Shown here: positions 762-48,836 of the stretch, in pieces
Numbering within the stretch: the stretch's first letter is position 1
How the letters are laid out: each line of letters starts with the position of its first letter
NCBI GenBank assembly: GCA_910575585.1
Contig: CAJTGF010000018.1
Location: 1 to 64,000, forward strand
Length of the DNA: 64,000 nucleotides
Direction: 5' to 3'
Origin: Clostridiaceae bacterium
Lineage (GTDB): Bacteria > Bacillota > Clostridia > Lachnospirales > Lachnospiraceae
Notes under the pieces: model-generated
Told to the model about the DNA's origin: nothing
Seen by the model: the letters and a program-made list of their open reading frames with translations, nothing else
Databases searched by the model: none
Program-made: the position numbers and the translations under genes

Positions 762-2264
762 ATGGCAGACGAAAAATTGAACGTGAGCCCGGAGGAAAAT
801 CCCCAGCCCAGTTTGTTCGATACTGGCCCGGCGGATGCTCCTGCCCCGGAAACATCCGCGCCGGAGCCCCCGGCCCCGGAGAACATTCCCGAGCAGGCCG
901 CCGTGGATGCGCCCGCCCAGGATGCCCCGGCTGGTGCTCCCGGCGAGGTGAGTGTATCCGCTGACCAGATTGAAAAGCTCATGGCAGAACAGCGGGCGGC
1001 GGGACGTGCGGAGGTGGAAAAGAACGAGCCGCCTGAACCGGAACAGCCGCCCACCCCGGCCCCGGAGGAAAAGGCCACCGAGAAAAAGGGTCCCACCAAA
1101 GAGGGCAAGACCGCCGGGGAAAAAGCTCCCGAGCCGGAAAAGCCCAAAGCCAAGCGGGGCCGCAAGCCCAAGGAAGAAAAAGCGGGGCCCGGCGAACCGG
1201 GAGGGACGGGGGCCCGCAAGGGCCGCCCACCCAAGGCTGACAAGGCGGCCCCCGACAAGCCCCCGTCCCCACCTCGAGACAAAATGTCCCAAAGCAAGGG
1301 GGCCAAAGCCGCCACGGTAAAGGGTAAAGAAGAAGCCCCCGCCGATCCTGCGCCGGAGCCGCCGCCCCAGCCCCGTGACGCGACCCGCGCTGAAAAGGAA
1401 GAGATCGTCTATCTCAAACTTTCGGAGCTGTTCCCGTTCAAAGACCATCCTTTCGGTGTGCGGGACGATGCGGAAATGAAAGGGCTTGTAGCATCCGTCA
1501 AGGACAACGGCGTACACCAGCCCGCGCTGGTGCGTCCCCGCGAGGGCGGGGGCTATGAAATCATCGCGGGCCACCGCCGCCAGCGGGCCAGTGAGCTGGC
1601 CGGGTTCGCCAATATGCCGTGTATTGTCCGCAACATGACGGACGATGAGGCTGTCCTTGCGATGACGGACGACAACCTGCGCCACCGGGAAAAGATTTTG
1701 CCGATGGAGAAAGCACAGTCCTTAAAAATGCAGGTGGAGGCCATCAGCCACCAGGGGGCAAAGCTGGCGGGCGATGACGTGAAGGACGTGGGCAAACGCT
1801 CCACGGAAATCGTGGGGGAACGAAACGGCATGAATTACAAGCAGGTACAGCGGTATATCCGGCTGACCGAGCTTGTGCCGGAGCTCCAGTCTATGGTGAA
1901 CGAGAAAAAGCTGTCTTTCACCCCCGCCGTGGAAATCTCGTTCATCAAGCCCAAAAACCAGAGGTTTATCGCCGTTTCCATTGAGGGCGAGCAGGCATCC
2001 CCCTCGCTTTCCCAGGCGCAGGAGCTCCGCAAGCTGGATAAGGACGGGAAACTGAACGGCGATGTCATTGACGGCATTTTGAGCCGTGAGAAAAAGGAGG
2101 TAGACAAAGTGATTATTTCCGCCGCAGAGCTGAACAAGTATTTCGGCAAGGACACCACGCCCCGGGAAATGAAAGACCAGATTATGTCCCTGCTGGATGC
2201 GTGGAAAGAGAAGCAGCCCCCGGAGCGCACCGCGCCGGAGAAAAAGACCGACCGGGAAAAGTAA
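762..2264 (+). CDS. ParB-family DNA-binding protein of the ICE
   Basis: 500 residues, start ATG behind GGAGG. Residues 1-205 are low-complexity, rich in Pro, Glu, Ala and Lys, with two AT-hook-like motifs (KRGRKPK near 130, RKGRPPK near 147). Residues about 213-310 form a ParB N-domain with the GHRRQRA box near 268, the signature of the ParB CTPase/clamp family. The rest is a helical region containing the putative HTH (NYKQVQRYIRL). ParB proteins bind palindromic parS-like sites and either partition DNA or regulate genes (KorB, Noc). No parA is seen in the window. One copy of the ICE-wide palindrome lies inside the gene (codons about 171-178) and another directly after its stop, suggesting autoregulation. 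The family call is firm; the job in this ICE is inferred. Confidence 0.85.
   Translation: MADEKLNVSPEENPQPSLFDTGPADAPAPETSAPEPPAPENIPEQAAVDAPAQDAPAGAPGEVSVSADQIEKLMAEQRAAGRAEVEKNEPPEPEQPPTPAPEEKATEKKGPTKEGKTAGEKAPEPEKPKAKRGRKPKEEKAGPGEPGGTGARKGRPPKADKAAPDKPPSPPRDKMSQSKGAKAATVKGKEEAPADPAPEPPPQPRDATRAEKEEIVYLKLSELFPFKDHPFGVRDDAEMKGLVASVKDNGVHQPALVRPREGGGYEIIAGHRRQRASELAGFANMPCIVRNMTDDEAVLAMTDDNLRHREKILPMEKAQSLKMQVEAISHQGAKLAGDDVKDVGKRSTEIVGERNGMNYKQVQRYIRLTELVPELQSMVNEKKLSFTPAVEISFIKPKNQRFIAVSIEGEQASPSLSQAQELRKLDKDGKLNGDVIDGILSREKKEVDKVIISAAELNKYFGKDTTPREMKDQIMSLLDAWKEKQPPERTAPEKKTDREK
1272..1294. repeat. ICE palindrome copy 1, inside parB
   Basis: Left arm CCTCGAGACA, centre AAA, right arm TGTCCCAAAG. 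It lies in the linker between the AT-hook tail and the ParB domain and is read there as RDKMSQSK. Confidence 0.85.
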
Positions 2265-2265
2265 G

Positions 2266-2288
2266 CCTTGAGACATTTTGTCCCGAGG
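2266..2288. repeat. ICE palindrome copy 2, after the parB stop
   Basis: Left arm CCTTGAGACA, centre TTT, right arm TGTCCCGAGG. It begins two bases after the parB stop codon and precedes the structured intergenic region. Confidence 0.85.
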
Positions 2289-2339
2289 CTTTTCTCTTTC
2301 CCGCGCCCCTCCCCCGCGCCTTGCATGGCGTTCTTTTAG

Positions 2340-2515
2340 AGAGGGGCTCTGGTGGTATATCCCCCGTCGCCGCCTGCTACTGAGCACAGCCGGGAGTGGG
2401 CGGTCAAGGGGCGGAACGCCCGCCGCTTGCGGCGGCTTGCCCTTGACGGCCCGCCCCGGCTGTGCCACCCCTCCCGGCGCGGCGGGGGATATATCCTCCA
2501 GAGCCGCCCCCTTTC
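2340..2515. repeat. Large nested inverted repeat in an intergenic region
   Basis: Successive arms pair in nested order: GGGGCTCTGG with CCAGAGCCGCCCC, TATATCCCCCG with CGGGGGATATA, GCACAGCCGG with CCGGCTGTGC, GGCGGTCAAGGG with CCCTTGACGGCC, and an apical GCCGCTTGCGGC. The whole could fold into one hairpin of about 170 nt as RNA or as a DNA cruciform. It fills the gap between parB and the next gene and no coding region fits it. Its role is unknown. Confidence 0.7.
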
Positions 2516-2538
2516 CCATGAATGGGAAAGGGCGGGGG
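2507..2538. repeat. GC-rich hairpin just before the DUF7768-like gene
   Basis: CCCTTTCCCAT and ATGGGAAAGGGCGG pair around a two-base loop. It abuts the larger inverted repeat and lacks a T-run, so it is not a classical terminator. Confidence 0.6.
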
Positions 2539-2583
2539 GATAGGGCTGAACGACAACTATTAAAATATCGGAGGTAAACGACT

Positions 2584-2925
2584 ATGAAACGACCCCTTGC
2601 TTACATCACCGCCGCTTGGTATGGCGGCGATACGGAAAATGCGGAGCTGGCCGCGCAGTACTGCCGGGCGGTCTACGATGCGGGCTTTGCCCCTATCTGT
2701 CCGGCGCTGTTCCTGCCCCTTTTCCTCAATGACGCGGTTCCCGAGGAGCACAAGAGCAGCATTGACATTGGCCGCGACCTGCTCCGCCGCTCCCGGGTGC
2801 TGGTGGTGTGCGGGCATACCGTCACCGAGTCCATGAAGAACGACATCGCCGTGGCCCAGCGGCTGGGCATCACCGCTACCACCCTTGAGGGCATTTTGAC
2901 CGTCAAGGGCCAGGGCCGCCGCTAA
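2584..2925 (+). CDS. DUF7768/DUF4406-like protein
   Basis: 113 residues with a Rossmann-like start (AYITAAWYGGDTENAELAAQ), a central segment LLRRSRVLVVCG and a T-E-S-M-K motif. These resemble the nucleoside 2-deoxyribosyltransferase-like domains (DUF4406/DUF7768) often found in phages and ICEs. A GGAGG lies upstream and one base separates it from ardA, so the two are co-transcribed. Any enzymatic role is not established. Confidence 0.6.
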   Translation: MKRPLAYITAAWYGGDTENAELAAQYCRAVYDAGFAPICPALFLPLFLNDAVPEEHKSSIDIGRDLLRRSRVLVVCGHTVTESMKNDIAVAQRLGITATTLEGILTVKGQGRR

Positions 2926-2926
2926 C

Positions 2927-3634
2927 ATGGCCGGGCTGTTCGAGGCGCACGTCACCAACCTTGGGAAATACAACGAGGGAGTGCTGGCCGGGGAGCCGCT
3001 TTCGTTCCCCGCCAGCCCCCAGGCGGTGCAGGCACTCTTAAAGGACATCGGCGTGGACGGCATACGCTACGAGGAAATTTTTATTGCCAGCTATGACTTC
3101 GGCGGCATCCTGCCGGAGCTTTCGGAGCATCTCGGTGAATACGAAAGTCTGGACGAGCTGAACCATCTGGCCTGCCTGCTCTCGGAAATGGCTCCGGACG
3201 ATTTTGAAAAATTCGGCGCGGCCCTCAGCATGGGAACGCATACCTCCAGCTTGGCGGACATCATCAACCTTGCGGAAAATCTGGAGTATTTTGAATTTTA
3301 CCCGGATATTGAAAACGAGGACGATTTGGGCCGCTATTATGCGGAGGGTTTGCCAATCCCCGCAGAGCTGAAAGACTATGTTGACTATGAGTCATACGGG
3401 CGGGACATATCCACCAACGAAAACGGCCACTTTTCCCACGGCGGCTATATTATCCAGACTGATACCCTCAAAGAAATCTACCACGGGACAGAGGACATCC
3501 CAAAAGAGCACAAGATTTTTGCCCTCCCCCAGCTCTCCATCCGGGAGCAGATGGCCGCCTACAAGGAAGTGATTGACCGCTTTCCTCCTGCGTCTGACCG
3601 GGCCCGCCCGGAGCCGGGCCGTGAGGGGCGGTGA
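2927..3634 (+). CDS. ardA: Antirestriction protein, ArdA family
   Basis: 235 residues, strongly acidic as expected for a DNA mimic, with the ArdA-type opening (LFEAHVTNLGKYNEG) and FEKFGAALSMG further on. ArdA proteins mimic B-form DNA and inhibit type I restriction enzymes when a conjugative element enters a new host. The product acts in the recipient cytoplasm. The gene follows the DUF7768-like gene directly. Its stop codon abuts ICE palindrome copy 3. Two DNA methyltransferases in the same ICE would complement it. Family assignment is good; activity is inferred. Confidence 0.8.
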   Translation: MAGLFEAHVTNLGKYNEGVLAGEPLSFPASPQAVQALLKDIGVDGIRYEEIFIASYDFGGILPELSEHLGEYESLDELNHLACLLSEMAPDDFEKFGAALSMGTHTSSLADIINLAENLEYFEFYPDIENEDDLGRYYAEGLPIPAELKDYVDYESYGRDISTNENGHFSHGGYIIQTDTLKEIYHGTEDIPKEHKIFALPQLSIREQMAAYKEVIDRFPPASDRARPEPGREGR

Positions 3635-3657
3635 CTTCGAGACAAAATGTCCCAAAG
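3635..3657. repeat. ICE palindrome copy 3, between ardA and pcfB
   Basis: Left arm CTTCGAGACA, centre AAA, right arm TGTCCCAAAG. It starts at the base after the ardA stop codon and lies about 40 bases before the pcfB start. Confidence 0.9.
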
Positions 3658-3696
3658 GCCGGAGGGCCTATCCCCCATGAAAGGAGGCGGTTTTGA

Positions 3697-4176
3697 TTGA
3701 TTGACGAGGATGTTTCCCGGCGCACTATCGCGTTATCCATACGGACGGGAAAGCTGACGGCCCGGGTGCTGGCCTATGCGCTCCGGGCGGCTGGCCGGAA
3801 GATACAAAAGGAACGCCGGGCCCGCCAGACGCCCCACGGCAGGCAGTCCGTGAAAAAGCTCATGGCCCACGGCGCGGCCACAAACAGCATCGAGCTCACC
3901 GGGGCCCCAAAAGAATTTGACCGGGTGGCCCGGAAGTGGAATGTTGACTATGCCTTTTACAAGACCGGGCCAGACAAGTATCTGCTGTTCTTCAAGAGCG
4001 GGCAGGCGGACGCTATCACCGCTTGTTTCTCCGAGTATTCCCGCCGGGTGCTGGATAAGGCCAAGACTGACCGCGTACCCATCCGGGAACAGCTCAGACG
4101 GGCCGCCGCCGAGATACTGCATAACCCCGCCCACAAGAAAGAGCGTGTAAAGGAGGCCGCCCATGAGGACAGATAA
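3697..4176 (+). CDS. pcfB: PcfB-family conjugation protein
   Basis: 159 residues resembling PcfB/DUF3801 proteins, which accompany the coupling protein in Gram-positive conjugation and probably link the relaxosome to VirD4. The start is TTG, with AGGAGG 9 bases upstream and no in-frame ATG nearby. It overlaps virD4 by 14 bases, so translation is probably coupled. The strong ribosome binding site with a weak start recurs in other mobility genes of this window. Confidence 0.75.
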   Translation: MIDEDVSRRTIALSIRTGKLTARVLAYALRAAGRKIQKERRARQTPHGRQSVKKLMAHGAATNSIELTGAPKEFDRVARKWNVDYAFYKTGPDKYLLFFKSGQADAITACFSEYSRRVLDKAKTDRVPIREQLRRAAAEILHNPAHKKERVKEAAHEDR

Positions 4177-5987: not shown

Positions 5988-6010
5988 CTTTGGGACAAAA
6001 CGTCCCAAAG
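5988..6010. repeat. ICE palindrome copy 4, after virD4
   Basis: Left arm CTTTGGGACA, centre AAA, right arm CGTCCCAAAG, with one base off consensus. It lies between virD4 and maff2. Confidence 0.9.
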
Positions 6011-7139: not shown

Positions 7140-9059
7140 ATGAAAATAATCAATATTGGCATTCTTGCCCATGTAGACGCGGGAAAAACAACTTTAACAG
7201 AAAGCCTGTTGTACACCAGTGGAGCGATTGCAGAACAAGGAAGTGTAGATAAAGGAACCACAAGAACAGACACTATGGTTTTAGAGCAGCGGCGGGGAAT
7301 TACCATTCAGACGGCAGTTACTTCTTTTTGCTGGAATGGTTATAAAATCAATATCGTGGACACTCCCGGTCATATGGATTTTTTAGCCGAAGTATATCGT
7401 TCTTTATCTGTCCTTGACGGAGCTGTTTTAGTTGTTTCGGCAAAAGACGGTGTACAGGCACAGACCCGAATATTATTCCATGCACTTCAGAAAATGAACA
7501 TTCCGACAATTATCTATGTAAATAAGATAGACCAAAACGGAATTGATTTACGGCGTGTTTACCAAAACATCAGGGAAAAACTTACCAGTGATATAATCGT
7601 CATGCAAGAGGTTATCTTATCGCCCAAAATAGATATTACTGATATTGCTGATTTGGATAAATGGGATTCCGTTATTTCCGGGAATGATGAACTATTAGAA
7701 AAATATATTTCAGAGGATTCATTGGACATACAGGAATTACAACTTGAAAAGTGCCAGAGAACCAGATGTTGTTCTTTGTTTCCTGTATATCATGGAAGCG
7801 CAAAAGACAATTTAGGAACAGAAAAATTGATTGAGGTAATTACTGAAACTTTTGTTACAGAAACAAAAAATAATCAGTCTGAATTATGTGGGTATGTTTT
7901 TAAGGTTGAGTATACAGAAGGGAAAAAACGTCTTTCCTACTTACGCCTATATCATGGAACGCTCCATTTACGAGATACACTTCTGCTGTCAAAAAAGAAA
8001 AAGGTAAAGATTACAGAAATGTACATTCCGGCAAATGGCGAAATTGTTTCGGCAGACCATGCCTGTCAGGGAGAAATTGTTGTCTTATCCGATGATACTT
8101 TAAAATTATATGACATTTTGGGAAATGAAGAACTTTTACCTCGCAAAGCATGGATTGACAATCCTATGCCTTTACTTCGGACAACCGTTGAGCCACAAGA
8201 GCCAGAACAAAGAGAAGCCTTGCTGAATGCTCTCATAGAAATTGCCGATACAGACCCACTTTTGCACTTTGAAATTGATACTGCCACCCGTGAGATTATT
8301 CTGTCTTTTTTAGGAAAGGTGCAATTAGAGGTTATTTGTTCATTGCTGGAAGAAAAGTATCATGTAAAAGTGGCTATGAAAGAGCCTACGGTTATTTATC
8401 TGGAAAGACCGTTAAAAAAGGCAGCCTACACGATTCATATTGAAGTACCACCAAATCCATTTTGGGCGTCTATTGGTTTAACTGTAACACCACTCCCTAT
8501 CGGAAGCGGAACCCAGTATAAAAGCAAGGTATCTCTTGGCTATTTGAACCAAAGTTTTCAAAATGCCGTCATGGAGGGTGTGCATTATGGAATGGAGCAA
8601 GGCTTATATGGCTGGGAAGTGACAGATTGCAGCATTTGTTTTGACTATGGAGTTTATTACAGCCCGGTTAGTACCCCCGCAGATTTTCGCTTCCTTGCTC
8701 CTGTCGTATTGGAACAGGCATTGAAAAAAGCAGGAACACAGGTTTTGGAGCCATACCTTTCCTTTACCCTTTTTGCTCCACAGGAATATCTTTCACGGGC
8801 TTACAATGATGTGCCAAAATATTGTGCAGTGATTGAATCGGTTGTACTTGAAAATGATGAGGTTATTTTTAAAGGAGAAATCCCCGCCCGCTGTATCAAT
8901 GAATATAAAAATGATTTAAATTTTTATACAAACGGGAGAAGTGTTTGTCTTACAGAATTAAAAGGGTATAAAGAAACTTCTGGGGAGTTTGTATCGCAGC
9001 CACGCCGCCCTAACAGTCGGTTAGATAAGATTCGGTATATGTTTCAAAAGACAATGTAA
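7140..9059 (+). CDS. tet: Ribosomal-protection tetracycline resistance GTPase
   Basis: 639 residues, the normal length for Tet(M)/Tet(O)/Tet(W)/Tet(32) proteins. They are EF-G-like GTPases that bind the ribosome and dislodge tetracycline. GTPase motifs are intact: AHVDAGKT at 10-17, DTPGH at 74-78, NKID at 128-131. The domain IV loop [12 protein letters not shown] lies near 505-516. The start is ATG behind GGGAGG. The usual LERQRGIT switch segment reads LEQRRGIT here, and several cysteines (SFCWNG, RTRCCS) look unusual. I cannot fix the allele without alignment; it looks divergent, perhaps nearest tet(32). Its GC is clearly lower than the flanking mobilization genes, so it is cargo. Control is by the leader attenuators. 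Confidence 0.95.
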
Positions 9060-9110
9060 GTTTTTGTGAATTATATGGAGAAAAAATCTGATAAAAAAGG
9101 AGAACCTATT

Positions 9111-9599
9111 TTGAATAAAGAGCGGACAAATACAGCAAATAAAAAACAAAGGCTTTCAGCTTGCACCGAAGCATACAAAGAACACATTATGTATACTTTT
9201 AACGCTTTTTGTAGAGTGGTGATACGCTATGCAACTCTCAACTCATGGCGTGACAGAAGCAGGAAACGGCAAAGAGAAATATCTTTTGAATATCTTACAG
9301 AAGAAAAATTTTACCCGTTCAGTACGTCTAATAAATATTTCATAGACCCCTATGAGCAGTACCCCATCACCATATGTGGTCAGACGGTTATCCTCACCAA
9401 TGGAGAGCTTGCCGCTGCGCTGTTATCCTTGCCAGAGAAAAAAAGAGAAATCATTTATCTCTACTTTTTCGGTCATTACACGCAACAGGAAATTGGTGAA
9501 ATGTATGGACGTTGCCGGAGTACGGCATGGCATCACATACACAGTGCTTTACAAATGTTACAAGAAAAAATGGAGGTGTTTTCGCATGAAGAATCCTAA
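9111..9599 (+). CDS. Sigma-70 region 4-like protein of the tet module
   Basis: About 162 residues from a TTG at 9111, which has AAAAGGAG just upstream; a longer GTG start at 9066 lacks one. The C-terminus reads LSLPEKKREIIYLYFFG then TQQEIGEMYG, a sigma region 4 helix-turn-helix. It corresponds to the Orf7-type sigma-like regulators that accompany tet genes in Tn916-type modules. It overlaps the next gene by 14 bases. It probably regulates transfer genes; this is inferred from Tn916. Confidence 0.75.
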   Translation: MNKERTNTANKKQRLSACTEAYKEHIMYTFNAFCRVVIRYATLNSWRDRSRKRQREISFEYLTEEKFYPFSTSNKYFIDPYEQYPITICGQTVILTNGELAAALLSLPEKKREIIYLYFFGHYTQQEIGEMYGRCRSTAWHHIHSALQMLQEKMEVFSHEES

Positions 9600-9871: not shown

Positions 9872-10022
9872 GCGTTTATTTTCGGCGTTTTTGAAAAACC
9901 GCCGTATTGCCCCACGAAAAGGGAAACATGACACGCTCTTTGTTTGGCAGTTTTCAATTTTCGGTGGTGTGGGGAATGAAAGGAAAATGAAGAAATTTCT
10001 CAAAATTCCCGCCTATCCGGGC

Positions 10023-10114
10023 TTGTGTGGTTTTGTAAGAAATGAGGGGAAATTTCCGCAAATCACCGTCATTTTTGCTTTGCGTGGTGTTGTAGGTAGT
10101 AGGGGGAGAAATAC
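10023..10114 (+). repeat. Degenerate direct repeats upstream of mobC, candidate oriT region
   Basis: The stretch 9872-10396 holds no credible gene. Two copies of a roughly 34-base unit occur at 10023 and 10080. Both start TTGYGTGG, carry TTGTA and end in a G-run followed by GAAAT or similar. The position just upstream of mobC and the relaxase is where mobilizable elements usually carry oriT. No nic site was recognised. Confidence 0.35.
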
Positions 10115-10396
10115 CGCCGCCGAGTTGGCAAAATCCCCGCCCTGTCCGTCGAGGGTATCAGAAAATTCCATAAGATATTTTCGCCGGAACGCAACAAACC
10201 AGCCGCCAATAGCCGGATAGTAAGCGAACAGACCACACAGCGCAGTTTCTTAGAGCAAGATTCTACCACAGTACCAAATTTCGCCTACCGGCTCATTTTG
10301 TCCTATGGGAATCTTGTTGGGGTTGCCACCCCAAGCCCGCCTTTTTGCGGCTTGCGCCGCTTGAAAAAATCCACCCACGAAAGGAGATTCACAGCC

Positions 10397-10792
10397 ATGA
10401 AAAGATACAACACGCCACACCGTCACCGGGTAATCAAGACACGCTTGACCGAGGAAGAATACGCCGAGTTTTCCGAGCGTGTCACCCTCTGCAAAATGAG
10501 CCAAGCCGAGTTTATCCGGCAAGCCCTTATCAAATCAAGCATACGCCCGGTCATTACCGTTTCCCCGGTCAATGATGAATTACTCTCTGCCGTTGGAAAA
10601 CTCACAGCCGAATACGGGAAAATCGGCGGCAACTTGAACCAGATTGCCCGCTGTCTGAACGAGTACGGCGCACCTTATAACGCCCTCTCCCAAGAGGTAC
10701 GAGCCGCCACAGCGGAGCTTGCCGCCTTGAAGTTTGAAGTCTTGCAGAAAGTAGGTGAAGCCGTTGGCAACGTTCAAACATATCAGCTCTAA
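10397..10792 (+). CDS. mobC: MobC-like relaxosome accessory protein
   Basis: 131 residues from the ATG behind AAGGAG. The N-terminal half carries a ribbon-helix-helix-like segment (TRLTEEEYAEFSERV). The GGNLNQIARCLN motif is typical of MobC proteins, which melt oriT and assist the relaxase. The 3' end overlaps the relaxase start, so the two are probably coupled. A second MobC belonging to the ICE lies at 41657-42007. Confidence 0.85.
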   Translation: MKRYNTPHRHRVIKTRLTEEEYAEFSERVTLCKMSQAEFIRQALIKSSIRPVITVSPVNDELLSAVGKLTAEYGKIGGNLNQIARCLNEYGAPYNALSQEVRAATAELAALKFEVLQKVGEAVGNVQTYQL

Positions 10793-12395
10793 AAATGCCG
10801 ACTATGGGGCGGCTGAACAGTACCTAACCTTTGAGCATGACGAGTTTACCATGAAGCCCACACTGGACGGAAACGGGCGGCTTGTTCTCCGTGACGATTA
10901 CCGCATTTCCTCTCTGAATTGCGGTGAGGAAGATTTTGCAATCGCCTGTATGCGTTCTAATCTCAAATACGGCAAGAACCAGAAACGGGAGGACGTAAAG
11001 AGCCACCACTATATTATTTCCTTTGACCCCCGTGACGCACCAGACAACGGCTTGACCGTAGACCGGGCGCAAGCGTTGGGCGAGGAATTTTGCAAGACGC
11101 ATTTCCCCGGACACCAAGCCCTTGTATGCACCCACCCGGACGGGCATAACCACAGCGGAAATATCCATGTGCATATCGTAATCAATTCTTTGCGGATTGC
11201 GGAAGTGCCGCTATTGCCCTACATGGAAAGACCAGCCGACACAAGAGAGGGCTGCAAGCACCGCTGTACAGACGCAGCTATGGAATACTTCAAAGCGGAA
11301 GTCATGGAGATGTGCCACCGGGAAAATCTCTATCAGATTGACTTATTGCATGGGAGCAAGAACCGAGTTACCGAGCGTGAGTATTGGGCGAAACGGAAAG
11401 GACAAGCCGCACTGGATAAAGAGAACGCTACCCTTGCCGCCACAGGAGAGCCGCCCAAACAGACCAAGTTTGAAACCGACAAGGAAAAGCTAAGGCAGAC
11501 CATACGGAAAGCCCTTGCCGCCGCTGCCACCTTTGACGACTTTTCCTCTCTGCTGCTCCGGGAGGGCGTGACCGTCAAAGAGAGCCGGGGGAGATTGTCA
11601 TATCTCACGCCGGATAGGACGAAGCCCATCACCGCCCGGAAATTAGGTGATGATTTTGACCGTGCCGCCGTACTGGAAGCACTCACCATAAACGCACAGA
11701 ACGCCGTCAGAGCCGCCGAAACGCCCGCACCCAAACAGGAATACCCCCGCAGCATAAAAGACCGCTTACAGCGTGGCAAAGCCACTATAAACGCCCCGAA
11801 ACAGGACAGCGTACAGCGCATGGTAGACATAGCCGCCAAGAAAGCCGAGGGCAAGGGGCGGGGCTATGAAAAGTGGGCGACCTTGCACAACTTGAAGCAA
11901 ATGGCGGCTACCATGAGCGTTTACGAGGAATCCGGCTTTTCTTCCCCGGAGGAACTGGAAGCTGCCCTTGCCGCCGCCAATACAGAACTGCACGAAACCA
12001 CCGGGAAACTGAAAGCCGTGGAAAGCACTTTGCGGGAGAAAAAAGACTTGCAGAAACAGCTATTGGCGTATATCAAGACCAAGCCAGCCCGTGACGGATT
12101 GCGGGCGCAGAAAACGGAGAAAGCCCGGAGAGCCTACCGGGAGCAGCACGAAAGCGAGTTTATCATTTCCGAATCTGCCGCCCGGTATTTCAAGGCACAG
12201 GGAATCGCCAAACTGCCAGCTTCCAAGACCTTACAAACGGAGATTGAGCAGCTTACCAAAGAGAAAAACGCCCTTTACAACGAGTACCGGGAGAAGAAAG
12301 AGAACGTCCGGGAATTGCAGACCGTGAAAAGCAATCTTGACAAAATCTTACGCCGTGAGCCGGAACGGGGAAAGGGACGGGAAAATGAACGGTAA
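10764..12395 (+). CDS. MOBP-type relaxase of the tet mobilizable element
   Basis: About 543 residues. I chose TTG at 10764, giving MATFKHISSKNADYG, the common N-terminus of this relaxase group; a GTG at 10755 is in frame. The metal-binding motif is HNHSGNIHVHIVINS. The C-terminal half is a helical coiled-coil region. The enzyme nicks oriT and pilots the strand through a transfer channel. The element has no secretion genes of its own, so it must borrow a helper such as the surrounding ICE. It overlaps both mobC and the Cys-rich gene. Confidence 0.88.
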   Translation: MATFKHISSKNADYGAAEQYLTFEHDEFTMKPTLDGNGRLVLRDDYRISSLNCGEEDFAIACMRSNLKYGKNQKREDVKSHHYIISFDPRDAPDNGLTVDRAQALGEEFCKTHFPGHQALVCTHPDGHNHSGNIHVHIVINSLRIAEVPLLPYMERPADTREGCKHRCTDAAMEYFKAEVMEMCHRENLYQIDLLHGSKNRVTEREYWAKRKGQAALDKENATLAATGEPPKQTKFETDKEKLRQTIRKALAAAATFDDFSSLLLREGVTVKESRGRLSYLTPDRTKPITARKLGDDFDRAAVLEALTINAQNAVRAAETPAPKQEYPRSIKDRLQRGKATINAPKQDSVQRMVDIAAKKAEGKGRGYEKWATLHNLKQMAATMSVYEESGFSSPEELEAALAAANTELHETTGKLKAVESTLREKKDLQKQLLAYIKTKPARDGLRAQKTEKARRAYREQHESEFIISESAARYFKAQGIAKLPASKTLQTEIEQLTKEKNALYNEYREKKENVRELQTVKSNLDKILRREPERGKGRENER

Positions 12396-21989: not shown

Positions 21990-22961
21990 ATGGGTTACCA
22001 TACAAGGGAAACCAACACAGTGCCATGCGGATACCACGAATTGAATCCGGAAATGGAGGCTCTTTTAGCGGAGTACCTTGAAGACGGGAAACGCAAGGGG
22101 CTTCAGGAAAGCAGCATCCATCTTCACGATAAGATTGGGCACTACTTTTTATCCGCCCTGGCTGATACAGGCTGCGCAGCGCCGCAGGCAATGAACGCCC
22201 AAAATGTAGGAGCCGCGTGTTTAATGGTCAGCAGCAACTGGTACCTTTCACACATCCGGACATTCCTCAGATATGCATATCAGGCCAGACATACCGACAG
22301 GGATTACAGCGGAATCGTCCCTCTTTTCAAGAGGCCGCAGCCGTACCCTTCTGTTTATACAATAGAAGAAATCCTGAAAATTGAAAACAGCGTAGACCGG
22401 GACTCCCCACATGGAAAGCGTGATTACGCAGTGCTGCTTCTTGCGACACGGCTGGGGATCAGGAGCGGGGACATCTCATCCATGACATTCCGGGAACTGG
22501 ATTTTGGCAGGAACCTGATTCTGCTTACACAGCACAAAACCAGCGTTGACATTGAACTTCCCATGGTCCCGGATGTAAAGGCCGCCCTGAAACAGTATTT
22601 AGAGGAAGAACGAGCCTGCTATGACAGCCCGTATGTATTTCTCCGCATCGTTCCCCCTTACAGCCATATCTCTGTGCAGGCAATCACCAAGATCGTCAGG
22701 ACTGCCATTATGGCAGCCGGAATTGATCCGGCGGGACGCAAACAGGGCGCACATGCTTTCCGGTCGTCCCTGGCAAGTTCCATGGTCAATGACAACATCC
22801 CTTATGAGGCGGTAAGGAAAGCCCTTGGGCATACAGACCAGAACGCCATCCAATCCTATGCCAGTCTGGATGTGGAGCAGCTGCGGAACTACGCCCTCCC
22901 GGTCATGGAGGCGACAGGTACATTTGCCGCTTTTCTGGAGGGGAGGTGGCGCCTGTCATGA
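21990..22961 (+). CDS. RIT tyrosine recombinase A
   Basis: 323 residues from the ATG at 21990 behind CAGGAGG; an earlier ATG at 21903 lies in the terminal repeat. Catalytic pattern intact: Arg in TRLGIRSGDIS, Lys in HKTSV, H-x-x-R in HAFRSS, His in LGHTD, Tyr in QSYASLD. Tyrosine recombinases cut and rejoin DNA through the Tyr; in RIT elements all three act together on the terminal repeats. The stop overlaps the next start (ATGA). Confidence 0.9.
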   Translation: MGYHTRETNTVPCGYHELNPEMEALLAEYLEDGKRKGLQESSIHLHDKIGHYFLSALADTGCAAPQAMNAQNVGAACLMVSSNWYLSHIRTFLRYAYQARHTDRDYSGIVPLFKRPQPYPSVYTIEEILKIENSVDRDSPHGKRDYAVLLLATRLGIRSGDISSMTFRELDFGRNLILLTQHKTSVDIELPMVPDVKAALKQYLEEERACYDSPYVFLRIVPPYSHISVQAITKIVRTAIMAAGIDPAGRKQGAHAFRSSLASSMVNDNIPYEAVRKALGHTDQNAIQSYASLDVEQLRNYALPVMEATGTFAAFLEGRWRLS

Positions 22962-32859: not shown

Positions 32860-32882
32860 CTTCGGGACATTTTGTCCCAAAG
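32860..32882. repeat. ICE palindrome copy 5, after trbL
   Basis: Left arm CTTCGGGACA, centre TTT, right arm TGTCCCAAAG. It lies between trbL and the spoVG-like gene, 20 bases before the latter. Confidence 0.9.
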
Positions 32883-33691: not shown

Positions 33692-34475
33692 CCCGGCTTT
33701 GGGACAAAATGTCCCAAACCTTAACCCGGAACCCTCCGGGCTCTACCTCATGGATGGCATCGCGGGCCTGCGCTCCCTGCCGGAGCACTCAGTCGATATG
33801 CTTCTGACCGACCCGCCCTACGGCACGACCCGCAACTACTGGGACGTGCCCCTGCCGCTCCCGGAGCTGTGGGAGGCGGTGCGCTGGGCGATCAAGCCCT
33901 CCGGGGCGGTGCTGTTCTTCGCACAGTGCCCCTATGACAAAATCCTCGGCGCGTCCAACCTCTCCATGCTCCGCTATGAATGGGTGTGGTATAAGAGCCG
34001 CTGTACGGGATTTCTCAACGCACGCCGCGCCCCGCTGAAAAAGACGGAGAATATTTTGGTGTTCTATCAAAGGCTCCCCCTCTACAACCCGCAGTTTGAG
34101 CAGGGCAAGCCCTATAAGAAAATCGCATCCCACCGTGACCAGAGCCCCAACTATGGGAAGTTCGTCCGCTCCGGCAGCGGCTCGGAGGACGGGCGGCGGT
34201 TCCCGGGGAACCTGCTTTCGTTCCAGACCGTGGCCCATACCGTCCACCCCACCCAGAAGCCCGTGGAGCTGTGCGAGTATCTGATAAAGACCTACACCGC
34301 CCCCGGCGAGGTGGTGGCGGACATCTGCGCGGGCTCCGGCACAACGGCCATCGCCGCTCTGAACACGGGCCGGGAGTTTATCTGCTTTGAGACGGCCCCG
34401 GCCTTTTTCGGCCCGGCCACGGAACGCATCACGCAGGCGCGGGCGGCTGTGGCCGCTGGCGGAAAGGGGGTGTGA
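33681..34475 (+). CDS. Site-specific DNA methyltransferase (DPPY type)
   Basis: 264 residues from the ATG behind GGAGGG. The catalytic motif TDPPYG near residue 49 and the AdoMet motif (ICAGSGTTAIAAL) near 215 are in the beta-class order (catalytic before AdoMet), so it is an N6-adenine or N4-cytosine enzyme. No restriction partner is present. It probably protects the incoming element, together with ardA and the next methyltransferase. Codons 6-13 (ALGQNVPN) are formed by ICE palindrome copy 6. Confidence 0.88.
   Translation: MADSPALGQNVPNLNPEPSGLYLMDGIAGLRSLPEHSVDMLLTDPPYGTTRNYWDVPLPLPELWEAVRWAIKPSGAVLFFAQCPYDKILGASNLSMLRYEWVWYKSRCTGFLNARRAPLKKTENILVFYQRLPLYNPQFEQGKPYKKIASHRDQSPNYGKFVRSGSGSEDGRRFPGNLLSFQTVAHTVHPTQKPVELCEYLIKTYTAPGEVVADICAGSGTTAIAALNTGREFICFETAPAFFGPATERITQARAAVAAGGKGV
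33697..33719. repeat. ICE palindrome copy 6, in the methyltransferase 5' end
   Basis: Left arm CTTTGGGACA, centre AAA, right arm TGTCCCAAAC. It is inside the coding region 16 bases after the start. Confidence 0.9.
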
Positions 34476-35041
34476 CTATCGGTAAGTATTCCGTGATATA
34501 TGCCGACCCGCCGTGGCGGTACGCCCAAAAGGGCCTGCAAGGTGCGGCGGAGCGGCACTACCCCACAATGGGGATTGAGGAATTATGCGCGTTGCCCGTG
34601 GCGGATTTGGCGGCCCCGGACAGCGTTCTTTTTCTGTGGGCCACGTTCCCCCAGCTCCCGGAGGCCCTGCGGCTCATCAAGGCGTGGGGCTTTCACTATA
34701 AGTCCGTGGGCTTTGTCTGGCTGAAAAAGAACAAAAAGGCGGACAGTTGGTTTTACGGGCTGGGCTTTTGGACGCGGGCCAACGCGGAGGTGTGCCTGCT
34801 GGCGACCCGTGGGCATCCCCGGCGCAAGGCTCCCAACGTCCACCAGTTCATTATCTCCCCTATCGAGGGCCACAGCAAAAAGCCGGACGAGGCCCGGGAG
34901 AAAATCGTGGCCCTTATGGGGGACGTGCCCCGGGTGGAGCTGTTTGCCCGCCAGACGGCCCCCGGCTGGGACGTGTGGGGGAACGAGGTGGAGCCCACGG
35001 CGGGACTTCGGGACATTTTGTCCCAAAGAAAGGAGGCTTGA
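34472..35041 (+). CDS. MT-A70-family adenine methyltransferase
   Basis: 189 residues from a GTG overlapping the preceding stop (GTGA). YADPPWRY at about 10-17 is the DPPW motif of the MT-A70 family, with FWTRANAEVCLLATRG and KPDEAREKI further on. Family members methylate adenine in DNA or RNA. The 3' end encodes LRDILSQRKEA, the part made by ICE palindrome copy 7. Two adjacent orphan methyltransferases inside a transfer operon suggest modification of the element's own DNA. Confidence 0.88.
   Translation: MTIGKYSVIYADPPWRYAQKGLQGAAERHYPTMGIEELCALPVADLAAPDSVLFLWATFPQLPEALRLIKAWGFHYKSVGFVWLKKNKKADSWFYGLGFWTRANAEVCLLATRGHPRRKAPNVHQFIISPIEGHSKKPDEAREKIVALMGDVPRVELFARQTAPGWDVWGNEVEPTAGLRDILSQRKEA
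35006..35028. repeat. ICE palindrome copy 7, at the MT-A70 gene end
   Basis: Left arm CTTCGGGACA, centre TTT, right arm TGTCCCAAAG. It lies in the last codons of the gene and 15 bases before the prgI start. Confidence 0.9.
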
Positions 35042-39477: not shown

Positions 39478-39735
39478 ATGGCGATTAGCAAGAGCGCAAA
39501 AATCATGGCCGAGATCGAAAAGGTCAAGGGCAAAATCAGCGACCAGCAGGCCCGGCTGAAAGAGCTGGAACAGAAACACAAGGAGGCCGAGAACGAGGAA
39601 ATCGTGGACATCGTGCGGGGCATGAGCATTTCCCTTGAGGAGCTCCCGCTGGTGCTCCAGCGCATCAAGGCCGGGGATACTTTGGGACAAAATGTCCCGA
39701 AGTCTGCCGGGCCGGAAAAGGAGGACGCGGAATGA
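39478..39735 (+). CDS. DUF4315-family protein
   Basis: 85 residues from the ATG behind AAAAGGAGG. A coiled coil (KIMAEIEKVKGKISDQQARL) is followed by MSISLEELPLVLQRIKAG, the DUF4315 pattern. The last 20 residues include LGQNVPKSAGPEK, encoded over ICE palindrome copy 9. It is always found next to the CD1107-type gene in this ICE group; function unknown. Confidence 0.85.
   Translation: MAISKSAKIMAEIEKVKGKISDQQARLKELEQKHKEAENEEIVDIVRGMSISLEELPLVLQRIKAGDTLGQNVPKSAGPEKEDAE
39680..39702. repeat. ICE palindrome copy 9, at the DUF4315 gene end
   Basis: Left arm CTTTGGGACA, centre AAA, right arm TGTCCCGAAG. It lies 30 bases before the DUF4366 start. Confidence 0.9.
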
Positions 39736-42051: not shown

Positions 42052-42074
42052 CTTTGGGACATTTTGTCCCAAAG
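42052..42074. repeat. ICE palindrome copy 10, before the relaxase
   Basis: A perfect copy: CTTTGGGACA, TTT, TGTCCCAAAG. It lies between mobC and the relaxase, 10 bases before the AGGAGG box. Confidence 0.95.
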
Positions 42075-43525: not shown

Positions 43526-43548
43526 CTTTGGGACATTTTGTCCCAAAG
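43526..43548. repeat. ICE palindrome copy 11, after the relaxase
   Basis: A perfect copy: CTTTGGGACA, TTT, TGTCCCAAAG. It lies 21 bases after the relaxase stop. Confidence 0.95.
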
Positions 43549-45901: not shown

Positions 45902-46551
45902 AAGCAACATTATCCATTGTAAAGCGGTTGCTTGCCAGCAATAAAATCAGCTTTATTGTTACAGCAGTGGTGGTTCTTTGCGCCACGACATCCGGCGACT
46001 CCGCCGTTGCTTTAAGTAACGGAAATTACACTTGGCTTTTGGCTGTACTGACACCATTTTTCTTTGTGTTTTATGATTTCAAAAAACTGATTCACTTGGG
46101 AGCCAGTAAAAAGGATTTTTATTTTGGTGCATTGGTCAGTTATGTGGGTCTTGCCTTTTTGGTTTCTCTGCTCAACACGGGGATTCACCTTTTGATTGAC
46201 CCCCTCAACCATACGCAGACCGTGATTAACTTAATGGCCGTATGCGGTTGGATGGAAAACAATGTATTTTTTGCTTTTGTTCAGCAAGCTGTGTTTCTGC
46301 TTCTGAGTATGGTGTTTCTCCATGTTCTGCTGTCCATGCAACCCCATTGGTACGGCTGGCTCACAGATATTATTCTGGTTGCCATCATCTGTATTTTTAC
46401 ACCCATCGCCCCGTTGCGTGGGCTTTTAGCTGGATTTTTCAAAGTGATTATGTTCAATCCCAATGCACTGGCCCATATCAGTATCTGTATTGGAGTGAGT
46501 GCCGCTCTGAGCGCCGTTGGCTTGACTGTTTTGAAACAGAAAACACTGTAA
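45898..46551 (+). CDS. ABC transporter permease
   Basis: 217 residues with about six hydrophobic segments (FIVTAVVVLCATT; WLLAVLTPFFFVFYDF; YVGLAFLVSLLNTG; AVFLLLSMVFLHVLL; DIILVAIICIFTPI; LSAVGLTVL). It partners the preceding ATPase. It is followed by the lipoprotein gene nine bases later. Confidence 0.8.
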   Translation: MKATLSIVKRLLASNKISFIVTAVVVLCATTSGDSAVALSNGNYTWLLAVLTPFFFVFYDFKKLIHLGASKKDFYFGALVSYVGLAFLVSLLNTGIHLLIDPLNHTQTVINLMAVCGWMENNVFFAFVQQAVFLLLSMVFLHVLLSMQPHWYGWLTDIILVAIICIFTPIAPLRGLLAGFFKVIMFNPNALAHISICIGVSAALSAVGLTVLKQKTL

Positions 46552-46560
46552 GAAAGGCAA

Positions 46561-47232
46561 ATGAAAATGAAGGAAAAATTATTACTGATGTTTACGGTTT
46601 TTTTGCTGGTAGGTTCCCTCTCTGCCTGCTCTGACGAGGGGAACACCTTTGAAACGAAAACATACACACCAGAGGGGATTGTGGTAAACGGAATTGATGT
46701 TCAAGTAACCGACCGGGAAATTGTGGTCGTCCTCTCCGATGATGGTCAATTTCATATCGACTATGCGGAAAGCGCAAAAGAATTTTATGATATTTCCGTA
46801 TCTGACAACGGTATTTTGACGATGGTTTCCGAAAGCGATAAAACGTGGACGGACTACATTGGAGGAAGCAAATCTGCTGGTGCGGATAAAATCACGATCC
46901 AGATCCCCAATGCCACTCTTTCCGTTTTGACCCTCTGCACCACAAAAGAGGACATATCCCTGCCGGCGCTGACTGTAACAGAGCAACTTACTTTGTCTAC
47001 CAACGGGGGAGAGATTTCCTTTGAGAATATCAGCGCCGCAAGCTCCATCACTTTGGAAAATAAAAACGGTGACATTGTTGGAGCAATCACCGGGAGCTAT
47101 GATGATTATACAATTACCTGCACAATCAAAAAGGGTAAGAGCAATTTACCGGGTGAAAAAGGCGGCGGCAACAAGACATTAACTGCAATCAATAACAACG
47201 GGGATATTGATATAGAATTTATTAGTGAATAA
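46561..47232 (+). CDS. Lipoprotein with DUF4097-like beta-helix domain
   Basis: 223 residues. The lipobox LSAC at about 20-23 follows a hydrophobic signal, so it is a membrane-anchored lipoprotein. The body alternates short beta strands (LTLSTNGGEISFENISAASS) as in DUF4097 adhesin-like proteins. It may sense or bind the substrate of the ABC exporter. Confidence 0.72.
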   Translation: MKMKEKLLLMFTVFLLVGSLSACSDEGNTFETKTYTPEGIVVNGIDVQVTDREIVVVLSDDGQFHIDYAESAKEFYDISVSDNGILTMVSESDKTWTDYIGGSKSAGADKITIQIPNATLSVLTLCTTKEDISLPALTVTEQLTLSTNGGEISFENISAASSITLENKNGDIVGAITGSYDDYTITCTIKKGKSNLPGEKGGGNKTLTAINNNGDIDIEFISE

Positions 47233-47282
47233 GCCCAAATATCTCAAAAGTCGTTGTTTTGCAGTTGAAAAATACTGATAGA

Positions 47283-47325
47283 CGGCGGTTTTGAAATATC
47301 AAATTCAAAGCCGCCGATTTCTTTT
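47283..47325 (+). terminator. Terminator of the ABC/lipoprotein operon
   Basis: CGGCGG, TTTTGAA pair with TTCAAAG, CCGCCG and a T-rich tail follows. Confidence 0.8.
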
Positions 47326-47359
47326 GAAAAACGGAGGGTGTATTAAAGTCACCCACTTT

Positions 47360-47402
47360 TAAGGACACGGCGGTATCCGGGAGGTATCGCTGTGTCCTTT
47401 AT
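47360..47402. terminator. Second hairpin downstream of the cargo block
   Basis: AAGGACAC and GTGTCCTT with inner GTATC repeats form a stem followed by TATT. Confidence 0.6.
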
Positions 47403-47560
47403 TCTTGCTCCGCTTCTTAACTTGTTAAAAAAAGCTTGCCTCCTCCTTGGGATCAATCCGGCCCGAAATATGCAATATACAAGTCTATAATATGCAGGTA
47501 TTTTTCGTGCGCTCGCATGGCTTTATGTCGTGTGGGCGCTTTTATTTTACATCGACCTTA

Positions 47561-47583
47561 CTTTGGGACAAACAGTCCCAAGG
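47561..47583. repeat. ICE palindrome copy 12, before the sigma-like gene
   Basis: Left arm CTTTGGGACA, centre AAC, right arm AGTCCCAAGG. It is the most degenerate copy and lies 37 bases before the RBS hairpin. Confidence 0.75.
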
Positions 47584-47619
47584 TGCGGACCGGCTCCCCC
47601 GGGTGTCGCTCCCCGCCGC

Positions 47620-47666
47620 CCTCCATATCGTTTCCCGGCAACCAAACCACAAAAACGATATGGAGG
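47620..47666 (+). promoter_or_regulatory. Hairpin that sequesters the RBS of the sigma-like gene
   Basis: CCTCCATATCGTTT (47620-47633) and AAACGATATGGAGG (47653-47666) are perfect 14-base complements around a 19-base loop. The right arm contains the Shine-Dalgarno GGAGG, 8 bases before the ATG. A folded transcript would hide the ribosome binding site. Confidence 0.75.
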
Positions 47667-47674
47667 TACATACA

Positions 47675-48097
47675 ATGACTATCATCAACTTGCGCGACTT
47701 TTACTACTGGTACACCCAGGATGAATATATGGAAGTTTCTGACGATGTGGCCGAGGCTCTCCGGGCCAGTGTCCGCTATGAGGCGGCATACCAGCGGCGG
47801 CTCTCCCGCCACAAGGCGCAGTATTCGCTGGACTGCGAGGACGGCATTGAGTATTCCGCCTGCCTGCGCGAGCTCACCCCGGACGAGGTTCTGGAGCTCA
47901 AGGAGCGGTTCTGCCGTCTGTGGAACGCGCTGAACAGTCTGCCCCCGGCCCAGGGACGCCGGGTGGATGCCTGCGTCATTCTCGGCAAGAGCTTTTCCGA
48001 GGTGGCACTGGCCGAGGGCGTTGACGAAAGCGCGGTGCGGCGGGCCGTGGAGCGCGGGCTGGAGAACATGAAAAAGTTTTTGAAAAATTCCCGCTGA
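47675..48097 (+). CDS. Sigma-70 region 4-like regulator of the ICE
   Basis: 140 residues from the ATG behind GGAGG. The C-terminus (GKSFSEVALAEGVDESAVRR) is a sigma region 4 helix-turn-helix; the N-terminus is short and lacks region 2. Such ICE sigma-like proteins usually drive recombinase or transfer genes. The RBS hairpin suggests tight translational control. A weak promoter (TATAAT at 47486-47491) precedes it. Confidence 0.72.
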   Translation: MTIINLRDFYYWYTQDEYMEVSDDVAEALRASVRYEAAYQRRLSRHKAQYSLDCEDGIEYSACLRELTPDEVLELKERFCRLWNALNSLPPAQGRRVDACVILGKSFSEVALAEGVDESAVRRAVERGLENMKKFLKNSR

Positions 48098-48524
48098 ACC
48101 AGTCCGAAAACCATCCAAAAATGTCTCGGTTAATGAGAGGAAGTTTTTTCTTCTCCACAACTAAATAGCGGGCGGCTCCGGGTGAACGCGGGGAGCCGGG
48201 CGGCGGGTGCGCGGTGACTTCTCCCACGGGAGAACGAGCGACCAACACCACCGCCGCGCGTGGGGAACCTGCCAGCCCCACGGCCACGATCCGCGAGGGA
48301 CAAGCTGGCTGCTTGCCGCTTGGGGCCGCCGCACAAAACAAGGGAACGCCGGGCCGCTAACTGCTGTCTTTTGACGGGCCAAACATACGGGCCCGGCGTT
48401 TCCTCTTTCAAACAAGTTCGAGACAATTTGTCCCAAGGTAGGGATAGGCCAAAGGGCAGCACTTTTCGGAGTGCTGTCCTTTCGCGTTTCCCCACCAACC
48501 CAAAACGCAAAAGGAGGTTTTGCC
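48098..48524. other. GC-rich structured intergenic region
   Basis: No gene is credible here. It holds several hairpins: TTCTCCC/GGGAGAA near 48221, AACGCCGGGCC/GGCCCGGCGTT (48345-48400) and AAAGG-CAGCACT/AGTGCTG-CCTTT (48451-48482), the last two terminator-like. ICE palindrome copy 13 lies between them. Its position between the regulator and the recombinase suits a control region. Confidence 0.55.
48416..48438. repeat. ICE palindrome copy 13
   Basis: Left arm GTTCGAGACA, centre ATT, right arm TGTCCCAAGG, in the intergenic region before the DUF6870 gene. Confidence 0.85.
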
Positions 48525-48791
48525 GTGAAACTGACCGCACAAGAGCTGGAACAAATGAAAAGCGTGAACATCGGCGCGGTGAGCGCGGATGCGCTGGCTG
48601 ACGTGAGCGGTATGGCCTTTGACCGCACCCTCCCCCGGGAGGAGCGGCTGGCCCGGTTTGTGAAACGGGCCGTCAATCCGTACTGCTTTAGCGTGGGCGG
48701 CGTGGGCGTGAAAATCGAATTTGCCGAGGGCGGCCCCTCCCTGCAGGAGATGTTGACCGCCTTTCTTATCCGGCAAAAGAGCGGGCTGTAA
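48525..48791 (+). CDS. DUF6870-like small protein
   Basis: 88 residues from a GTG behind AAAGGAGG. It reads LTAQELEQMKSVNIGAVSAD, then LPREERLARFVKRAVNPYCF, and matches the small proteins that routinely precede serine recombinases in this ICE family. Function unknown; perhaps a recombination directionality or regulatory factor. Confidence 0.65.
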   Translation: MKLTAQELEQMKSVNIGAVSADALADVSGMAFDRTLPREERLARFVKRAVNPYCFSVGGVGVKIEFAEGGPSLQEMLTAFLIRQKSGL

Positions 48792-48813
48792 CTGCTGTTG
48801 CGGCCTGCTCTCA

Positions 48814-48836
48814 CTTCGAGACAAAATGTCCCGAGG
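48814..48836. repeat. ICE palindrome copy 14, before the ICE recombinase
   Basis: Left arm CTTCGAGACA, centre AAA, right arm TGTCCCGAGG, 72 bases before the recombinase start. Confidence 0.9.

Follow-up and report, generated by a model that had tools for sequence, protein, structure and literature searches.

Which protein reads a 23-bp palindrome that is repeated fourteen times along an ICE of a Clostridiaceae bacterium, and what do these dispersed sites do? The sequence-only reading of this locus had pointed to a network centred on a ParB-family protein and serving silencing, partition or both. We analysed the window, by which we mean the whole stretch of 64,000 nucleotides on contig C18, together with related ICEs. 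With a probability of roughly 60% we regard the palindromes as candidate parS-like operators for the ParB encoded by the ICE itself, the CTP clamps of which would give element-wide control of transcription.

A search of the window with the palindrome pattern, allowing up to three mismatches, recovered all fourteen reported copies as 28 strand matches, while 100 dinucleotide shuffles of the window gave none. The sites span 47.6 kb; the same search had no match in 6010-32860 or beyond 48836, and the absence claimed for the nested region and for the DNA after the last copy is thus confirmed. The layout is 10-3-10, and in related ICEs the half-sites follow the family formula CTTY-x-GG-y-CA with differing bases at x and y. 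On the plus strand of the window the first site (1272-1294) lies within the parB frame and has a counterpart in locus L031 and, with three mismatches, at position 301 of contig C44. The next three lie directly 3' of the parB stop (2266-2288), immediately 3' of the ardA stop (3635-3657) and shortly 3' of the virD4 stop (5988-6010). They are followed by sites in the gap between trbL and the LPD26/SpoVG gene (32860-32882), shortly 3' of the latter (33697-33719), and in the end of the MT-A70 gene (35006-35028), 14 nt 5' of the next aligned gene, which we take to be prgI. Further copies are found shortly 3' of virB4 and close to the start of the NlpC/P60 gene (37776-37798), in the end of the DUF4315 gene 5' of a CD1107-like gene (39680-39702), between mobC and the relaxase gene (42052-42074), shortly 3' of the relaxase gene (43526-43548), and close to the start of a sigma70-region-4-like ORF (47561-47583). 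The last two lie 5' of the DUF6870 gene (48416-48438) and between this gene and that of the large serine recombinase (48814-48836), which itself (48908-50584, plus strand; Pfam Recombinase/Resolvase) stands at the right end of the ICE. Five of the 14 palindromes are asymmetric (1272, 2266, 3635, 48416 and 48814), with GAGACA confined to the left half. Because 1272 is in the parB frame, 35006 and 39680 are in gene ends and 47561 is inside an ORF, the sites are not all intergenic. Many gene junctions do carry a site, but the earlier wording that nearly every junction has one is slightly overstated, as the overlapping or abutting junctions DUF7768/ardA, DUF3801/virD4, MTase/MT-A70 and NlpC/DUF4315 of the window have none.

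Within the bacterium's genome of 6.13 Mb in 253 contigs, matches with no more than one mismatch are confined to C18, C44, C30 and C34, the last two with one match each. C44 carries a second ICE with 13 GA-type sites, and the single match on C30 adjoins homologues of the recombinase and DUF6870 proteins of the window ICE; within 20 kb of the C34 match none of 22 window ICE proteins was recognised. Allowing two to three mismatches adds a related palindrome, CTTCTGGACANNNTGTCCAGAAG, on C13, C19, C23, C56 and C76, and the first four of these five contigs have ICE gene homologues. These observations support the view that the palindromes cluster on ICEs and belong to the ICE backbone. A general host repeat is rejected, and in none of the four genomes in which the pattern was sought was the motif common in unrelated chromosomal DNA. 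With near-copies kept and no pattern supplied, a de novo scan of 92 loci for palindromes returned 29 locus families of at least three copies for a 3-base spacer, and its mirror control returned none. Across related ICE loci the motif type follows the linked ParB, and the sites track with this parB.

The proposed reader is encoded by parB (762-2264, plus strand), a 500-aa protein with a Pfam ParB_N match (PF02195, E = 1.9e-17) at residues 215-299. Residues 210-500 were modelled with AlphaFold (mean pLDDT 82.5), and the closest structures to this model are Noc, ParB and KorB; with its helix-turn-helix DNA-binding domain and the ParB/Noc/KorB fold the protein shows the features of the ParB/Spo0J superfamily. 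A 19-row alignment (A2) shows an invariant G-H-R-R stretch, which presumably belongs to the CTP pocket. For comparison we used a clade set of 97 loci (window, C44, L029-L108 and L159-L173). The N-terminal extension recognised in this comparison (762-1388, plus strand) is of low complexity and contains two AT-hook-like stretches, RGRKPK and KGRPPK. Its median length is 187 aa in 95 of the 97 clade ParBs versus 15 aa in the outgroup (60 of 67 ParBs), the remaining two and seven proteins being left out since the end of the extension was not located. AT-hook-like motifs were found in 66 of these 95 and in none of these 60.

Nine of the 97 clade loci have fewer than two sites (L056, L066 and L106 have none), a point against our reading, and were left out of the counts, and merging near-copies at 95% identity reduced the other 88 to 35 representatives. 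Also left out were sites with y = G (7/409 overall, 4/185 in the representatives), a chance match at 22822 of the window, and two GC-type sites that lie at the C44 terminus and belong to another element. The site filter applied after the de novo scan presupposes a GG.CA core, and the labels x and y are majorities, from which 5 (x) and 11 (y) of the 358 half-sites in the representatives deviate. The junction 3' of parB is occupied in 33 of 35 representatives, that of ardA in 26 and that of virD4 in 21, and these junctions hold sites in all four site types: GA (window), GC (L092 and L165), TA (L072) and TC (L074). Junction occupancy persists while the site sequence switches.

The switching sequence allows the reader to be sought by covariation. 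Among 291 ParB columns in the 35 representatives residue 359 is the sole perfect column for y, and residue 346 the sole perfect column for x. Arg at 346 goes with G at x, and Leu or Lys with T; Tyr, Gly or Ala at 359 goes with A at y, and Val or Ile with C or T. Both columns are in the helix-turn-helix. In the window Arg346 (codon 1797-1799, plus strand), which predicts x, is in the helix preceding the recognition helix, and Tyr359 (codon 1836-1838, plus strand), which predicts y, is residue 1 of the recognition helix as placed by the AlphaFold model. By eye Tyr359 aligns with R173 of Caulobacter ParB (PMC7383237), and residue 346 is not among the four residues named in the available part of that source. 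The YI(R/K/W/Y)L position had first been considered as the determinant of x, but L087 and L169 do not fit and the idea was abandoned.

On a ParB tree from which the helix-turn-helix was excluded, y changes three times and so does residue 359, the two agreeing in 3/3 pairs. For x and for residue 346 there are four changes each, which coincide in 2/2 pairs on supported branches. Independent switches are so few that sign tests cannot reach 0.05. None of the loci added later contradicts the rule, and L283 (51% identity) has the T/A site that it predicts. In the distant, ParA-bearing C26 and C55 ParBs (42-43% identity) Ala at residue 359 goes with C at y, and the rule therefore holds for the near clade only. 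The rule would name G/A for the distant loci L291 and L292, where no site was found.

Other proteins of the element were compared in the same way. VirD4 (30 loci), ArdA (26), DUF3801 (29) and DUF7768 (31) have no perfect column for x or y and are not supported as reader. Perfect columns for y and x, respectively, do occur in TrbL (2 and 0; 16 loci), MT-A70 (31 and 9; 10 loci), VirB4 (47 and 116; 13 loci) and SpoVG (2 and 122; 11 loci), tests which are uninformative because loci or types are too few. These columns, the hairpin that a site could form and the short T-run closely 3' of 2266, the only one among the 14 sites, are what can be said for ParB being incidental and for another protein, an RNA hairpin or a mobile repeat explaining the palindromes. 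We consider this highly improbable, as two ParB helix-turn-helix columns covary with the sites and none does in the four better sampled proteins. Half-sites of the Y-type are mixed C/T both ways (CT 21, TC 19), which fits duplex DNA rather than an RNA hairpin; half-site variation without kept pairing, in both orientations, and the lack of a close T-run at all sites but 2266 lead us to reject an RNA hairpin or terminator. The residue-base covariation strongly supports ParB as the likely reader of the palindromes, and to this extent the ParB-centred system proposed before is supported.

The position of the sites relative to transcription has to be weighed too. In the representatives 109 of 179 sites lie at most 30 nt after a stop codon, and in asymmetric GA-type sites GAGACA is upstream in 138 cases and downstream in none (65 GA-type clade loci, near-copies included; 37 versus 0 in the 19 GA representatives). 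Both counts would suit a stoperator-like roadblock, a special form of restraint in which site-bound ParB, with no need to slide, halts elongation and the asymmetric GAGACA class is oriented along transcription. However, about half of the GA-type sites (136/274) are symmetric, Y-type sites are unbiased in orientation and the counts are non-independent owing to orthology, and we hold such a roadblock to be rather unlikely. Stoperators of L5-type mycobacteriophages are likewise many sites in short intergenic regions of a mobile genome with a DNA-binding reader of its own, but in the part of the source available they are 13-bp asymmetric sites bound by a monomeric, non-ParB repressor (PMC9283540). 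Consensus promoter scans, which are weak evidence, gave little signal at the sites, with one weak minus-strand match overlapping 47561; this counts against the reading that we favour.

ParB proteins are also known from partition. ParABS centromere sites are usually clustered near parAB, dispersed centromeres also exist, and parS is a 16-bp site. The window ICE has no ParA beside parB and its sites are not clustered near parAB. No match to the ParA profile PF13614 was found on C18, and of 80 clade loci none has a full-length ParA adjoining parB, one having a fragment; a ParA-profile match at L164 (361-2157) lies in a large ORF about 7 kb upstream and was not counted as adjacent. Short-ParB relatives have an adjacent full-length ParA at 44 of 65 loci. 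The ParA-binding motif (L/F/I)G(K/R)G(L/F/I) is absent from the 97 clade and 67 outgroup ParBs alike and is uninformative. Clade ParBs thus have no full-length ParA next to them, and their N-terminal tail is long. It is therefore unlikely that the element is partitioned by a ParABS system of its own, and in this form the partition half of the earlier proposal is not supported. A distributed centromere, in which ParB on the dispersed sites would partition or stabilise the excised, replicating ICE with a ParA of the host or of another element, agrees with the ancestry of ParB, with 16 ParA-family matches elsewhere in the genome, with the 10-3-10 tandem arrays directly 3' of parB in two ParA-bearing relatives (L140 and L141), and with L104, where parB is preceded by a RepA_N gene and a ParA remnant. 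The lack of ParA on the contig and beside parB in the clade speaks against it; moreover, as a single site cluster can suffice for partition systems, the 14-19 sites at gene junctions would be left unexplained, and we think this alternative improbable.

The likeness to the operators of KorB from the IncP plasmid RK2, which had been noted from the sequence, stands in the similar number and dispersal of sites: both elements have dispersed operators for an element-encoded ParB homologue, with binding in the ICE suggested by covariation. KorB works with a ParA (IncC), whereas the window ICE has none on the contig; KorB operators are promoter-linked, whereas most of the ICE sites follow a stop codon and precede the next gene. 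The 10-3-10 site CTTYxGGyCA and the long AT-hook-like tail also set the ICE apart from the KorB system. According to the part of the report available, the sliding KorB clamp is ineffective in repression until stalled by KorA, a property that we count against a clamp-repression model here (PMC11790492). Noc uses 16-bp NBS sites in the source as available (PMC7383237). These, like the sites of ParB-parS systems, differ from the 23-bp 10-3-10 palindromes here, and the window ParB differs in being element-borne and extended at its N-terminus. Orphan ParBs are likewise ParA-less, located on mobile elements and often fused to extra regions, and the sections of PMC12704722 available to us mention neither this ICE family nor a grid of dispersed sites; its main text nowhere uses the term AT-hook. 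The statement that the motif lacked a description was not contradicted by searches of open-licence papers for ICE ParBs or the motif.

A ParB-like clamp regulator on an ICE is already known: BisD of ICEclc, described in the accessible text as a DNA-sliding clamp (PMC7423338, PMC13098234). Since BisD co-activates transcription (excerpts of PMC13098234 and PMC7423338), ParB clamps loading at the palindromes might help to activate rather than silence ICE promoters. We judge this unlikely. BisD itself is proteobacterial and works as an activator together with BisC.

Our preferred reading is that CTP-dependent ParB clamps control transcription across the whole element, with KorB, BisD and phage stoperators as parallels; covariation argues for binding and homology for function. 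One ParB dimer would contact the two 10-bp half-sites flanking the 3-bp centre, residue 359 selecting y and residue 346 selecting x; the covariation is observed, and the contacts are those it predicts. By homology ParB may shut as a CTP-dependent clamp and slide away from each site, and clamps and basic N-terminal tail may together spread over the ICE backbone. This cover would control how the transfer genes are transcribed, most probably by holding transcription down as long as the element is not activated. The system probably originated from a ParABS system through loss of ParA and spreading of the sites along the element, an origin with which the gene content agrees and whose direction we infer. 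Tentatively, and at less than even odds, a ParA-less ParB clamp with an AT-hook-like tail may form an element-specific chromatin system in this widespread gut ICE family, loading at the sites of many junctions and coating and silencing the entire element, with co-resident ICEs insulated from each other by two-base/two-residue switching.

Such ICEs carry antibiotic-resistance and other cargo between gut bacteria, and to our knowledge their silencing and activation are poorly understood. The two-position reader code makes the ParB-site system directly testable. It also supplies a set of naturally occurring changes in ParB specificity, in which residue 359 is a position known from ParB/Noc work and residue 346 a second candidate (PMC7383237, as far as available). 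The palindrome further provides a sequence tag for delimiting such ICEs in assemblies.

The sequence-only reading had located 14 copies of a 23-bp palindrome (10-nt arms, 3-nt spacer) at gene junctions of the ICE in the window, which is contig C18 of a 6.13 Mb draft genome; all were found again at the same positions, where the chance expectation is none. The ICE, which we take to be Tn1549-like, has backbone genes for VirD4, TrbL/VirB6, a VirB4-like protein (TraG P-loop), NlpC/P60, MobC/NikA and a relaxase, and a large serine recombinase gene forms its right end. Because similarity to relatives starts at about 540, parB (762..2264, 500 aa) is the first backbone gene. The nested insert splitting the backbone after 6010 is indeed free of palindromes. 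It carries an elongation-factor-G-like gene (7140-9059, Pfam), presumably of the kind conferring ribosomal protection against tetracycline.

Elsewhere in the same genome, with at most one mismatch, palindromes were found on C44 and one each on C30 and C34. C44 harbours a second ICE with 13 sites of the GGGACA (GA) type, mostly at junctions matching those of the window ICE. At the end of C44 two GGGCCA-type sites (L020, 3025 and 4506) flank a relaxase-like gene; they probably belong to a third ICE, whose site type differs. The palindrome on C34 (41590; L024, 9590) stands alone: none of the window's ICE proteins has a homologue in the 20 kb examined. Clustering was also seen in three better assembled genomes. 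G127 has 19 palindromes within 27.4 kb and one isolated; in its element the sites occupy the stretch from parB on the left to the recombinase on the right, except for one that precedes the aligned start of parB. G144 has 17 within 23 kb of C5, three on C7 and five on C8. Of the 22 palindromes in G760, a genome assembled as a single contig, 17 fall into three groups (8, 7 and 2), those of 8 and 2 each adjoining a parB; the remaining five are dispersed, at least one of them (1077079) resembling a chance match.

A pattern-free palindrome scan of 92 loci (the window and fetched relatives, near-copies included) gave 29 locus families with at least three copies for a 3-base spacer, versus 0 in the mirror control. 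Spacers of 1, 5 and 7 gave fewer (7, 7 and 9), which may partly be shifted readings of the same palindromes. The inner halves of the main families are GGGACA, TGGACA, GGGCCA and TGGCCA, with outer arms including CTTC, CTTT, CCTC and GCTC; L087 adds the arm GTTG. The half-site CTTY-x-GG-y-CA thus has two variable bases, x and y.

At least two sites are present in 88 of the 97 loci of the clade around the window's ParB, and reduction at 95% identity left 35 representatives (19 GA, 8 G-C/T, 4 TA and 4 T-C/T, named by x and y). Among their 291 ParB columns, residue 359 is the only one predicting y without error (Tyr, Gly or Ala for A; Val or Ile for C or T), and residue 346 the only one doing so for x (Arg for G; Leu or Lys for T). 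In the predicted structure residue 359 would open the recognition helix and residue 346 lie in the preceding helix; aligned by eye, residue 359 matches R173 in the ParB of Caulobacter, which PMC7383237 lists among the residues for specificity. No column perfectly predicting x or y exists in VirD4, ArdA, DUF3801 or DUF7768 (26-31 loci each). Such columns do occur in four ICE proteins sampled at just 10-16 loci, which is what samples this small would lead one to expect. On a ParB tree computed with the helix-turn-helix left out, y and residue 359 change three times each, agreeing in 3/3 pairs, and x and residue 346 four times each, agreeing in 2/2 pairs on supported branches, in both cases too few for significance.

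Loci fetched later did not contradict the rule. In the first set 17 of 20 ParBs match an already sampled one at 95% identity or more; one such near-copy, L274, has no site within 5 kb. L258, L264 and L266 (93, 65 and 81% identity; 3, 3 and 2 filter hits) have half-sites mostly as predicted, with a single stray hit in each. In the second set, 29 loci from viral contigs, L279 (90% identity) and two near-copies of L169 (L282, L299) fit the rule, and L283 (51%, ParA present) has a single site, which lies inside parB and is T/A as predicted; most other distant loci have residues outside the rule's scope or no sites. For two distant ParBs that have a ParA, those of C26 and C55, y is C despite Ala359, so the code holds for the near clade only. 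ParB is very probably the reader of the palindromes.

Of 179 sites in the representatives, 109 lie at most 30 nt downstream of a core-gene stop codon and 32 at most 110 nt upstream of an aligned gene start; 8 are within a gene and 30 elsewhere. The junctions after parB, ardA and virD4 are occupied in 33, 26 and 21 of the 35, respectively, some of the unoccupied ones belonging to loci truncated by a contig end. Since each is occupied in all four types, the place persists while the site sequence switches.

Wherever a GA-type site is asymmetric, GAGACA lies in its upstream and never in its downstream half, 138 to 0 in 65 loci (near-copies included) and 37 to 0 among the 19 representatives of this type. 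Asymmetric sites occur chiefly after parB (12/18), after ardA (9/15) and around DUF6870 (4/4); symmetric ones occur before prgI (8/8), after virB4 (3/3) and before the relaxase (2/2). The one-sidedness could reflect avoidance of an mRNA hairpin, against which speaks that Y-type sites (y = C or T) have no such orientation bias. The asymmetric sites of the window (1272, 2266, 3635, 48416, 48814) flank the junction expected on excision, grouped on both its sides.

A full-length ParA gene next to parB was found in none of 80 clade loci with at least 1.5 kb upstream, versus 44 of 65 loci of the short-ParB outgroup. L104 has a 62-residue ParA remnant (9034-9219) between an upstream RepA_N gene and parB, which looks like the trace of a lost partition operon. 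The median length of the N-terminal extension is 187 residues in the clade (95/97 measured) and 15 in the outgroup (60/67), with an AT-hook-like motif in 66/95 versus 0/60. Only 7 of 67 outgroup loci have at least two 10-3-10 palindromes. In L140 (C26; ~10422-10591, ParA upstream) and L141 (C55; ~7447-7650, upstream ParA ORF partial), both from the draft genome that holds the window, five or six tandem palindromes of the CTTTGTGCCANNNTGGCACAAAG type, 35-37 bp apart, start at most 20 nt from the parB end and resemble ordinary centromere arrays. Between one and three sites are present in each of four further relatives with a ParA (L025, L028, L188, L211). The pattern suggests that a ParABS system came first and that ParA was then lost and the sites dispersed, the direction being our reading. 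The clade loci L066 and L106 have no sites, and L056 has no palindrome in 20 kb; the latter may be a decaying element, because its ParB match (10001-10872, 89% identity) is 872 nt long, a length not divisible by three.

Mobile elements with orphan ParBs (PMC12704722) and ParB-like ICE regulators (PMC7423338, PMC13098234) have already been described. The open-licence papers searched for ICE ParBs gave no description of the site family, of its grid at gene junctions, of the extended ParB clade lacking ParA or of the two-position code, and within that scope we regard all four as new. ParB clamps can control a mobile element from a distance, KorB (PMC11790492) as a repressor and BisD (PMC7423338, PMC13098234) as an activator. 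Phage stoperators (PMC9283540) lie in the gaps between genes and are proposed to halt elongation. To the observed sites, positions, covariation and missing ParA we would add, by homology, that a ParB dimer binds the site, closes as a CTP clamp and slides. We further propose that it would control, probably restrain, transcription across the ICE backbone. This account as a whole we put at about 0.6; a roadblock alternative overlaps with it, so that the figures do not sum to one. That ParB controls transcription, in whichever direction, we consider quite likely.
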